Shown: positions 7,271 to 10,305 of the stretch, piece after piece | Numbering within the stretch: the first letter of the stretch is position 1 | Layout: every line of letters begins with the position of its first letter | From: Alphaproteobacteria bacterium | GTDB taxonomy: Bacteria; Pseudomonadota; Alphaproteobacteria; Caedimonadales; UBA9215 | Length of the DNA stretch: 34,940 bases | NCBI GenBank assembly: GCA_024280495.1 | Contig: JAJRPZ010000047.1 | Location: 1 to 34,940, forward strand | Direction: 5' to 3' | Program-made: the position numbers and the translations under genes | Notes under the pieces: generated by a model | What the model saw: only the letters and a program-made list of their open reading frames with translations | Told to the model about the DNA's origin: nothing | Database searches by the model: none

Positions 7271-7546
7271 ATGACACGCAATCGTCAATATATGAAATTC
7301 TGGATGCCCTTTGGGTATCATCGGATTTTAAATGATCGATATCTTATGGCTTGGCGTCGCCATGATAATGCCTATGGTATGTGGGGGCTTCCCCATGTAA
7401 AAAGCCGTAAGCAAGCCGATGACATTCTTCGTGAAAAATTAAAAAAACAAGGGGCTAATGTCATTTTTCGTAATGCTGTATATATGGGTGTTAGGACCTT
7501 TGGCTGGATTTTCTACCAAAAGGTAAAAATCGAAAAAAATGATTAG
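7271..7546 (+). CDS. Orphan 91-residue protein, possibly a degenerate Nudix fold
   Basis: I cannot assign this protein firmly. The order of elements resembles the start of a Nudix domain: a strand RYLMAWRR, then YGMWGLP where Nudix proteins have g-W-x-x-P-G-G, then a helix with LREKLKKQG in the place of the REL-x-EE-x-G box. The two catalytic glutamates are lysines here and the Gly-Gly is His-Val, so it would not be an active hydrolase. It is also shorter than a full Nudix domain (about 130 residues) and ends abruptly at KIEKND before the repeat at 7560. It starts 12 bases after nrdR and may be a decayed gene. This is a fold resemblance only, judged by eye. Confidence 0.5.
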   Translation: MTRNRQYMKFWMPFGYHRILNDRYLMAWRRHDNAYGMWGLPHVKSRKQADDILREKLKKQGANVIFRNAVYMGVRTFGWIFYQKVKIEKND

Positions 7547-7663: not shown

Positions 7664-8863
7664 ATGTCAACATCAAAAAAAACATCATCCTCCCAAAAGC
7701 CATTCAAACGTACAGCTTATTTTATTAGCGGTCTTCATCCCTTTGGTTTTGAGCATTTTTGGCCTATTTTGAAAAAAGGAGCTCAACAACATGCGCGACT
7801 TTATCCCCGTAAAATTGATATCAATCAAACTGGTGACTGGGACGGTAATCCAGAAGTAATCCTAAGGGCCAAAGAAAAAGGGGCCAGAGACACCATCACT
7901 ACCTATCGCTATATGAAGTGGAATGACCTTGTTATTGAACGCATGAAAGAACCTTATATAATTGCCTTTTTTGGCATGTTATTCATCTTTATAAAAGGCA
8001 TCTTCAATGGTGAAGTACGCAAATTGTATAAGCTTTCCAGGGGATTCGGTAATGGCATGGTTTATGTCAACATTCCCATTTTTATTATTTTGGGAGTTAC
8101 TTTTTTTTCTGCTATCTATTTTTATTCCTCCTTAGGACTCTTGAGTGTACTAATGGTTGGTCTTGGCCTCATTGGCGCCATCACATTGACAAAGAGTTTT
8201 GAAAAATTTTTCCATATTAAGCACTATTATCACCTTTTTAAAATACGTTTCGACTGGAATGCAGGTAAAGAAAAATCTCTTGAAAAACGTATTGATAAAT
8301 TTTCTAACCAATTAGCACAAGCGCTTTTAACTGATGATACCGATGAACTTCTTATTATAGGTCATAGTTATGGAACATTGTTGGCCGTTGATGCTCTAGC
8401 AAAAGCCCTTGATAAAATAAAGGGTAAAAAAATTAAACCAAAAAAAGTTGGTTTAATCACAGTAGGCGCCATTCATCACTCTATTGCTATCTGTAAATCA
8501 GCCCATTCTTACCGAAAATCTCTAGGGACCGTTGGGGGGGATGAACGTATTTATTGGCTTGAACCTTTTTCCCCTCAAGATGGTGGAAATTTTCCGAAAT
8601 GTAACCCCGTCACAGATTTCACTGATGTTAGTCCTGCCTATGGTCCTCATCAAAAATCTATTAAATATAAAGAACTCGTTACTCCAAAGACTTATAAAAA
8701 GAATAAGCATAATTTTTGGCGCATGCATTTTCAATACCTTTATGAAGGTGAAATTCCAGGAGATTATAGTTTTTTCCGTATGCTCTGTAGTGATCACCCT
8801 CTGGAAAAAAACTATGGTTATAGAGAAAAACTCCAGAAAAAAACGTCCAAGGAAAAAAAATGA
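7664..8863 (+). CDS. Membrane-anchored alpha/beta hydrolase, lipase-like
   Basis: The 399-residue protein has the nucleophile elbow LLIIGHSYGTLLAVDAL, with Ser235 in GHSYG, following a beta-strand as in lipases and esterases. An early strand with an oxyanion-type loop (YFISGLHPFGFEHF, residues 19-32) also fits. The partner Asp and His cannot be fixed by eye; candidates are in PVTDFTD and the HFQYLYEG region. Between strand 1 and the elbow there are two to three hydrophobic segments (about 96-115, 134-155 and 157-175), so the enzyme is probably inserted in the inner membrane, which is unusual for the fold. The C-terminus is Lys-rich. GAGG lies before the ATG. The stop overlaps the P450 start by four bases (ATGA), giving translational coupling and implying a joint pathway, perhaps on a lipid or hydrophobic ester. 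The substrate is unknown. Confidence 0.72.
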   Translation: MSTSKKTSSSQKPFKRTAYFISGLHPFGFEHFWPILKKGAQQHARLYPRKIDINQTGDWDGNPEVILRAKEKGARDTITTYRYMKWNDLVIERMKEPYIIAFFGMLFIFIKGIFNGEVRKLYKLSRGFGNGMVYVNIPIFIILGVTFFSAIYFYSSLGLLSVLMVGLGLIGAITLTKSFEKFFHIKHYYHLFKIRFDWNAGKEKSLEKRIDKFSNQLAQALLTDDTDELLIIGHSYGTLLAVDALAKALDKIKGKKIKPKKVGLITVGAIHHSIAICKSAHSYRKSLGTVGGDERIYWLEPFSPQDGGNFPKCNPVTDFTDVSPAYGPHQKSIKYKELVTPKTYKKNKHNFWRMHFQYLYEGEIPGDYSFFRMLCSDHPLEKNYGYREKLQKKTSKEKK

Positions 8864-10305
8864 CTAAGAGCCCCGTTTATCCAGATAAAGCCCCCGAACG
8901 TCTTATTGACGTTCTTGCCAACCGCCCCGCCCCTTTTTGTCCCCCAAAGCCCAATCATCGCAGTCATAATATGTCAAATTTTAAAAAGTTTTTCTTTTTT
9001 AAAGGCGATCTCCTCGAGAGCTACACGGAAAATGCCTATAGCTATCTCATGGGTAAAAACAATATGGGTCTTTCGGAAGTTTATGCCATCAACTGTCTGG
9101 ATACGGCTCATAAAGTTCTCATTAATAAAGCAAAAACCTTTCCCAAAAGTACTGTAATGTCACGGGCTTTTGAACCTCTCATTGGAAACTCTGTTTTTTC
9201 CGTTAATGGTTCTGTGTGGAAAGCACAACGAAAACGTCTCTCACCTGCATTTTCCCACATCCAAGTCAAACAGGCCTTTCTCAGTATGCGTGACGCCGTA
9301 GATCGCATGCTAAAAAACCTTGAAAAAGCTTCTAAATCTGGTGAAATCATTAATTTTGACGTTTTAATGTCCCAGGTCACTTCCGATGTTATTTTTCGTG
9401 TGATGTTTGGCGGTAAGCTTGATGGTAAACGTGGTAAAGCTATTTATGATAGTTTTCAAATTTATCAGCGAGAACAAAAGTATTTCTCCCTTCGCACCAT
9501 TATTAATTGGCCAAAATGGCTTCCAATTCTTGGAAAACGCCACAATAAAAAAGCCCTTCAAGCAGCAAAAAATATCCGTGATATCCTCTTTGATATTGTG
9601 AACGCGCGCCTTGAAATTCCCGCTGATAAGCGTCCCAGCGATATGCTCACAAGCATCTTAGACAAATATAAAGAAGACTTTGGTGACCGCATTCCAGCAA
9701 TAGAAGTGGTTGATCAGATTGCTTTTTTCTTTTTGGCAGGTCATGAAACAACGGCTGCGGCCACAACGTGGGCTTCTTATCTATTAACTGCAAGTCCCTA
9801 CGACAAAGATAAAATGCTTAAAGAAGTTAAAGACGTGGTCGGTGATCGTCCCCTTGAGTTTTCTGATATTCGAAAACTCAAAAATGTGACGGCAGTTTTT
9901 AAAGAAGCCATGCGTCTTTACGCGCCTGTTCCTTACTTTCCACGGCAAGCAACGGAAAAGACAGAACTTCGTAGTCATACTCTAAAACAAGGATCACAGT
10001 GCACGGTGAACGCCTATTTCATACACCGCCATACAAAATGGTGGGATCACCCTGATGCTTTTATACCAGAACGTTTTATGAAAGATGATCGACGCCCAGA
10101 TCACCCTATGGCCTACATTCCTTTCTCAGCTGGTCCCCGTGTTTGTCCAGGGGCGAGTTTTGCTACCGTTGAGTCCGTCTTACTTTTATCATCTATGTTT
10201 CGACAATATGACTTTAAACTTGTGGAAGGAATGGATATAGCGACTTTTTCTGAAATGACACTGCGTCCAAAAAATGGCATTCATGTGACGATTACGAAAA
10301 AATGA
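8860..10305 (+). CDS. Cytochrome P450
   Basis: The 481-residue heme monooxygenase contains every diagnostic element: the C-helix WKAQRK (residues 120-125), I-helix oxygen-activation motif AGHETT (293-298), the K-helix E349-x-x-R352, FIPERF (401-406), and the heme-binding loop FSAGPRVCPG with Cys429 as the axial thiolate. The sequence style (long, PERF, AGHETT) is closest to class II/CYP4- or CYP102-like fatty-acid or terpenoid hydroxylases, but the substrate cannot be told. There is no fused reductase, so it needs a separate ferredoxin or flavoprotein partner. No N-terminal membrane anchor is seen. AAGGA lies inside the end of the hydrolase gene, and the ATGA overlap couples the two. Its last 14 bases overlap the end of tmk on the other strand. 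Confidence 0.95.
   Translation: MTKSPVYPDKAPERLIDVLANRPAPFCPPKPNHRSHNMSNFKKFFFFKGDLLESYTENAYSYLMGKNNMGLSEVYAINCLDTAHKVLINKAKTFPKSTVMSRAFEPLIGNSVFSVNGSVWKAQRKRLSPAFSHIQVKQAFLSMRDAVDRMLKNLEKASKSGEIINFDVLMSQVTSDVIFRVMFGGKLDGKRGKAIYDSFQIYQREQKYFSLRTIINWPKWLPILGKRHNKKALQAAKNIRDILFDIVNARLEIPADKRPSDMLTSILDKYKEDFGDRIPAIEVVDQIAFFFLAGHETTAAATTWASYLLTASPYDKDKMLKEVKDVVGDRPLEFSDIRKLKNVTAVFKEAMRLYAPVPYFPRQATEKTELRSHTLKQGSQCTVNAYFIHRHTKWWDHPDAFIPERFMKDDRRPDHPMAYIPFSAGPRVCPGASFATVESVLLLSSMFRQYDFKLVEGMDIATFSEMTLRPKNGIHVTITKK

Follow-up and report, generated by a model that had tools for sequence, protein, structure and literature searches.

A membrane hydrolase and cytochrome P450 gene pair linked to KpsC/KpsS-type capsules in proteobacteria

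We describe here a pair of overlapping genes contained in a stretch of 34,940 nucleotides of an alphaproteobacterial genome (GenBank assembly GCA_024280495.1, contig JAJRPZ010000047.1, positions 1 to 34,940), which we refer to as the window. The first gene codes for a membrane-embedded alpha/beta hydrolase of 399 amino acids (aa) (7664..8863, + strand) and the second for a cytochrome P450 of 481 aa (8860..10305, + strand). The stop of the former and the start of the latter share the ATGA at 8860..8863 (+ strand), as can be read directly in the sequence, bearing out the co-translation proposed in a previous sequence-only reading of this DNA. The main outcome of the analysis is that the pair is linked to KpsC/KpsS-type (group 2-like) capsules, a link that is new here and that we consider well supported. 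Our preferred reading, to which we give a probability of about 0.55, is that the two genes form an accessory module of this kind of capsule assembly, which depends on an ATP-binding cassette (ABC) transporter, and that they process its acyl-lipid acceptor at the inner membrane.

Co-occurrence with KpsC/KpsS capsule genes

The link emerges from two samples of genomes. The class sample comprised 385 genomes, in which hydrolase matches at E < 1e-40 and matches to PF05159 (the KpsC/KpsS family) at E < 1e-30 were counted as strong; 41 genomes with weak PF05159 matches were treated as background, and hydrolase matches weaker than 1e-40 (five genomes in each sample) were left aside. A strong hydrolase was found in nine of the 385 genomes, all of them among the 21 with strong PF05159, and in eight of the nine it forms a pair with the P450. 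The hypergeometric p was 2e-11 for the pairs and 3e-4 by family, assuming 175 families and ignoring kinship within families. The phylum sample comprised 398 genomes, with a PF05159 threshold of 1e-20, and six pair genomes, the window's own included, are common to both samples. Here 44 genomes carried a strong hydrolase and PF05159 was detected in 36 of them, compared with 59 of the 398 overall. The P450 neighbour was checked in 43 of the 44 (all except G741; in G513 and G636 two of the three hydrolase copies were examined), and the 29 genomes with a confirmed pair, which belong to five families, were all PF05159-positive. Twenty-five of these are from a single family, f26, whose P450s group with those of named Rhodobacteraceae. 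The beta-Kdo (3-deoxy-D-manno-oct-2-ulosonic acid) transferases KpsC/KpsS are therefore carried by every pair genome tested, whereas the hydrolase and the P450 themselves match no KpsC/KpsS family. The pair is absent from many genomes with Kps genes, and for this reason we regard the module as accessory.

A correlation of this kind could also come from common ancestry and lifestyle, if the pair made an envelope lipid or another hydrophobic metabolite unrelated to the capsule. It is true that the majority of the 80 named loci described below show no linkage of the pair to kps, and that there are hydrolase-only relatives in genomes without KpsC/KpsS. We nevertheless consider this explanation unlikely, since KpsC/KpsS accompanied the pair in 8/8 and 29/29 genomes across five families. 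Within the order to which the window belongs, a P450 was found in one genome out of ten, this same genome being the only one of them with PF05159, and neither was found in the other nine. Finally, in three records, all outside the alphaproteobacteria, the pair is located among PF05159 genes. In a metagenome-assembled genome (MAG) named Gammaproteobacteria (L049) it lies between such genes; in G460 (L191), from another class of the same phylum, the order is kpsC, an insertion sequence element, kpsS, hydrolase and P450; and in plasmid 1 of Polaromonas sp. JS666 (L211) a PF05159 gene and a GT28-type glycosyltransferase precede a hydrolase and the P450, which are followed by a protein of 114 aa and then by another hydrolase. 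The hydrolase of G460 is interrupted by inserted DNA (L191:4233-9946), while its P450 and kpsS stay open.

The window's own genome has consecutive kpsC-E-M-T-S-D genes that occupy the end of contig C64 (locus L158). Profile matches over their cut-offs were obtained for PF05159 (twice) and PF02563, together with an ABC ATPase, while KpsE (TIGR01010, 9e-76), KpsM (NF050053, 2e-34) and KpsS (NF050054, 2e-70) were recognized by NCBIfam models whose cut-offs were not reached. The KpsC-like protein (L158:10934-12049) has one PF05159 module and 371 aa; the usual KpsC has two modules and is about twice that size. An assembly artefact was considered and rejected, since the contig of the pair and the genome G001, of the same genus, are syntenic over rlpA-dacA-tmk; a mutY-like gene on the kps contig, with a 60% match in G001, also counts against it.

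The hydrolase and the P450

The hydrolase open reading frame (ORF) was assigned to no family by the Pfam and NCBIfam profiles at E 0.01 (the only matches were sub-threshold, E 0.19 and 0.2), and a PDB sequence search gave no match at E 1. The AlphaFold2 model, built from 48 rows (predicted local distance difference test, pLDDT, 88.3; predicted template modelling score, pTM, 0.89), has a predicted alpha/beta hydrolase core. Hydropathy indicates three hydrophobic segments (98-116, 133-151 and 161-179) ahead of the nucleophile elbow, as the sequence-only reading had noticed; that reading placed them after strand 1, whereas in the model the insert (residues 98-183; 7955..8212, + strand; helices 98-135 and a hairpin 137-156/160-183) sits between strand 4 and the elbow. 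From one to three hydrophobic segments were found in the insert of 47 of the 48 family members, and four in the remaining one. Three residues, all encoded on the + strand, are invariant in the 48 alignment rows: Ser235, the nucleophile in GHSYG (8366..8368), Asp306, the candidate catalytic acid (8579..8581), and His355 in HFQY, the candidate catalytic base (8726..8728). They make up a putative triad by sequence conservation, geometry aside.

As for the fold, the best VIA-align matches were a domain of Nir2 (Z 11.2, 4.6 A over 242), the type II thioesterase YbtT (6ba9; Z 11.1, 3.4 A over 173) and the glycosylphosphatidylinositol (GPI) inositol-deacylase PGAP1/Bst1 (Z 10.5, 4.3 A over 216), followed by several lipases at Z 9-10, with monoacylglycerol lipase at 9.7. 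Lipids or acyl thioesters are the substrates of several of these top structural neighbours. PGAP1/Bst1, monoacylglycerol lipase and YbtT have the alpha/beta hydrolase core in common with the hydrolase, but at an identity of 9-15%, and such likeness of fold shows no function. Since Foldseek gave no significant match (none at E <= 0.001) and the top VIA rows (9c37, 6ba9, 8k9q and 3fle) were tied within Z 1, no hydrolase family was chosen by fold.

The P450 is a clear member of its superfamily (PF00067, 242.5 bits against a cut-off of 22.8, E 1.1e-71), with the I-helix motif AGHETT at residue 293, ExxR as EAMR at 349 and the haem loop FSAGPRVCPG at 422 (10123..10152, + strand; Cys429). The window's genome, which is 89% complete, yielded no other P450. 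The nearest solved P450s by sequence are plant LUT5 and then CYP4B1, with CYP3A4 and CYP102 lower; judged in this way, the solved relatives are distant and leave the substrate unfixed. A tree of 41 P450s, a chosen subset that includes the short rows L011, L015 and L107, separated 28 paired ones, the window's among them, from 13 unpaired alphaproteobacterial ones by a branch with 99/98 support. The best identity of the window P450 is 36%. A CYP number was not assigned, and the available text of PMC9148083 and PMC8197338 gives CYP family counts that offer no way to place this protein; PMC7998510 contributes nothing further on this point. The hydrolase tree (39 rows, also a chosen subset) grouped the window with L066 and 17 paired rows (87/88) and separated it from nine rows of KpsC/KpsS-negative genomes, while one paired row, L071, fell elsewhere.

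No redox partner is adjacent to the pair in the window, as had been noticed before. The sequence-only reading had suggested looking for a ferredoxin elsewhere in the genome, and the Fer2 search gave three places, one of them below the cut-off; ferredoxin reductase was not searched for. The sole free-standing [2Fe-2S] ferredoxin found lies in an apparent isc operon (gene names assigned by eye) and has counterparts in the P450-less genomes G001 and G002, so that it does not appear to be a dedicated partner.

Distribution and gene neighbourhoods

While a contig scan with a single query detected no relative, an alignment query did. Among 57 related genomes the hydrolase was present in three, the window's own included, and in the other two the best P450 match is immediately 3' of it, with a 4-base overlap in one and a 1-base gap in the other. 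In a wider set of 80 named loci (the best 80 of 543 relatives, mostly with Rhodobacteraceae names) the P450 follows the hydrolase directly in 74, and 68 of these 74 have the 4-base overlap, with an ATG or GTG start. The sequence-only reading would have been abandoned had the two genes not co-occurred elsewhere, an objection that is answered by the wide occurrence of the pair in this order. The paired loci lacking the overlap are six, among them L085, with a broken frame; L127 is truncated by the end of its contig. Another six loci have the hydrolase without the P450 (L054, L066, L070, L078, L117 and L124). The commonest neighbours in the 80 loci are of ccdA type (53), rne type (40) and fumC type (38), the last two labels being our presumption from the starts of the sequences. 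Their recurrence suggests that the pair has descended vertically within the Rhodobacteraceae. A common ancestral location is only hinted at by pbp1A, found near the pair in two of 84 loci searched. The P450 also matched 66 plasmid records by tblastn, of which those of Polaromonas and Paracoccus were examined.

Three genomes belonging to one family (G051, G275 and G178) encode a patatin-like phospholipase immediately upstream of the pair, a hint of a lipid substrate, and in G051 its gene (L160:5962-7104) overlaps the start of the hydrolase by ATGA. In three Methylobacterium-like records (G292, G513 and L078) a KpsD/Wza-family export gene adjoins a P450-less hydrolase. The MAG L066, whose record bears the title Bordetella parapertussis, has a P450-less hydrolase of the paired clade with kpsD-like, kpsS-like, short-chain dehydrogenase/reductase (SDR), sulfatase-family, class I/II aminotransferase and polyketide synthase (PKS) genes, and PKS neighbours are also found in L070. 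The make-up of the L066 cluster resembles, in our view, that of the rkp-1/wcb K-antigen clusters (PKS, aminotransferase, SDR, sulfatase-like and KpsS-like). The window differs from these in having a P450 and not a PKS beside the hydrolase. The rkp/wcb PKS and cluster are described in the accessible parts of PMC3908369 and PMC7902896. No kps gene was found near the pair at L052, L055, L071, L199 or the window.

In four loci outside the alphaproteobacteria a protein of 110-114 aa with a hydrophobic start is encoded directly 3' of the P450 (L049:10595-10936, L052:10584-10925, L191:2447-2776 and L211:13377-13721). These proteins are 68-71% identical to the Polaromonas copy, more alike than their neighbours would lead to expect, and had no Pfam match. 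There are also hydrolase relatives without P450 (L193-L198, L201-L203 and the second copies L200 and L208), most of them in KpsC/KpsS-negative genomes, and at L198, L200 and L208 an ORF of 195-200 aa with a hydrophobic start adjoins them. This suggests a second subfamily with another role.

In the window, the identified genes beside the pair code for serine hydroxymethyltransferase (SHMT), NrdR, thymidylate kinase (tmk) and a D-Ala-D-Ala carboxypeptidase. The P450 and tmk are convergent, and their 3' ends overlap by 14 bases (10292-10305). After nrdR there is a short ORF (7271-7546) with a DUF1353 match below threshold. A scan for promoters and terminators gave seven promoter-like sites compared with 9.8 in shuffles, i.e., no excess, and four terminator-like sites compared with 3.2. 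A recent transfer of the pair, for which the sequence-only reading had proposed a compositional test, was not supported: the GC (guanine plus cytosine) contents of 0.362 and 0.417 are inside the interval of 0.338-0.445 spanned by ten other genes of the window, and the codon fit of the pair is equal to or better than theirs.

Proposed role in capsule assembly

KpsS acts at the interface of cytoplasm and membrane, where it joins Kdo to (lyso-)phosphatidylglycerol, and KpsC extends the product, according to the available portion of PMC7694667. The hydrolase would be an inner-membrane protein, its active site facing the cytoplasm, and on that side it may cleave or transfer an acyl ester on a phospholipid, or a related acyl-lipid, used by KpsS and KpsC, i.e., the acceptor on which the beta-Kdo linker is built. 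The P450, produced at the same time and place, would oxidise the acyl chain, most simply by hydroxylation, in a step that may precede or follow that of the hydrolase, and its electrons could perhaps come from the general isc-type ferredoxin. We favour the processing of the lipid acceptor because the hydrolase is a membrane protein with a lipase-like fold, the P450 is co-translated with it and in both samples pairs were found only in genomes with KpsC/KpsS. The sequence-only reading had suggested a host or self lipid as the substrate; of the two the self lipid fits best, and a host lipid finds no support given the Rhodobacteraceae relatives and the link to capsule genes. A more specific version, which seems to us possible rather than probable, is that the hydrolase makes a lyso-phospholipid (or equivalent) acceptor for KpsS and the P450 oxidises the acyl chain of the anchor. 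The result would be an oxidised capsule lipid anchor common to the Rhodobacteraceae and several other proteobacteria, and perhaps also to Campylobacter.

The pair could also serve capsule assembly by altering the glycan or a sugar precursor and not the lipid, which would fit the co-occurrence and the kps linkage equally well. Here the comparison with Campylobacter jejuni is relevant. Its P450 gene Cj1411c, of the CYP172 family, has a neighbour, Cj1412c, lying between it and kpsS, which we take to be a possible homologue of the hydrolase. The main text of PMC3784454, which deals with Cj1411c, makes no mention of Cj1412c. As described in the parts of that article available, deletion of Cj1411c, the only P450 of strain 81-176, lowered the staining of capsular polysaccharide (CPS) and lipooligosaccharide (LOS), which was restored in the reconstituted strain, and those parts report no lipid change. 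The gene is at the downstream end of the kps region and its product was found in membrane fractions (PMC3784454, same parts). Like the window P450, Cj1411c is the sole P450 of its genome; its association with the membrane and its position at the kps cluster are known for Cj1411c itself. Against a glycan substrate are the membrane-embedded nature of the hydrolase, the lipases or thioesterases among its structural neighbours and its linkage in other lineages to a patatin or to a PKS/aminotransferase module, and we judge this alternative to be rather improbable.

The presence of YbtT among the top structural neighbours and of PKS genes in L066 and L070 would also agree with an editing or releasing thioesterase, acting on acyl-ACP (acyl carrier protein) or acyl-CoA (coenzyme A), with the P450 oxidising the freed chain before the assembly of the capsule lipid. 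However, the window contains no PKS-sized ORF, the PKS, SDR and aminotransferase queries matched no other paired locus, and Z values of about 9-11 are common to many hydrolases, so that this appears quite doubtful to us. A system for host-lipid scavenging or signalling, which the small genome with the pair's P450 as its only one might bring to mind, is very improbable, since the 80 listed relatives are for the most part named as Rhodobacteraceae, a family largely free-living or surface-associated, and the identified genes beside the pair do not suggest lipid uptake.

A number of observations weigh against the processing of a capsule lipid acceptor by the pair. The window's genome has the pair on contig C70 and kps on another, C64, and in the majority of the 80 named loci, mainly from Rhodobacteraceae, the pair adjoins housekeeping genes, outside any kps locus. 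The association with KpsC/KpsS rests on the two samples and not on these 80 named genomes, and members of one family do not count as independent observations. In the phylum sample eight hydrolase genomes (G424, G467, G482, G567, G583, G618, G651 and G653) had no PF05159 at 1e-20. No P450 was found beside the hydrolase in any of the eight, and these hydrolase-only genomes imply other functions within the wider hydrolase family. Conversely, 30 of the 59 PF05159 genomes of that sample are outside the 29 counted pairs (one of them, G741, has the hydrolase, its P450 being unchecked), hence the pair is not general to KpsC/KpsS capsules. The hydrolase is damaged in two of the 29 pair genomes, by the insertion in G460 and by one in-frame TGA in G745. 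The window P450 and hydrolase were flagged as long branches of unusual composition in both trees, the hydrolase model found no Foldseek match at E <= 0.001, and Cj1411c is no more than a candidate for the clade of paired P450s.

Our literature search found nothing joining a P450 with capsule, kpsS and kpsC, and the matches listed for P450 and kpsS were, by title, not on this subject. In Ruegeria, a P450 (SPO1898) and kpsS (SPO1757) appear among small fitness effects in the accessible part of PMC10041152. The link to the capsule offers a testable function for a group of P450s common in Rhodobacteraceae, and it may explain the capsule effect of the orphan P450 of Campylobacter. To our knowledge, it is not settled which enzyme supplies the lyso form of the phosphatidylglycerol acceptor. 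The hydrolase, which in its paired form was accompanied by KpsC/KpsS in all the genomes tested, is a specific candidate for this supply.

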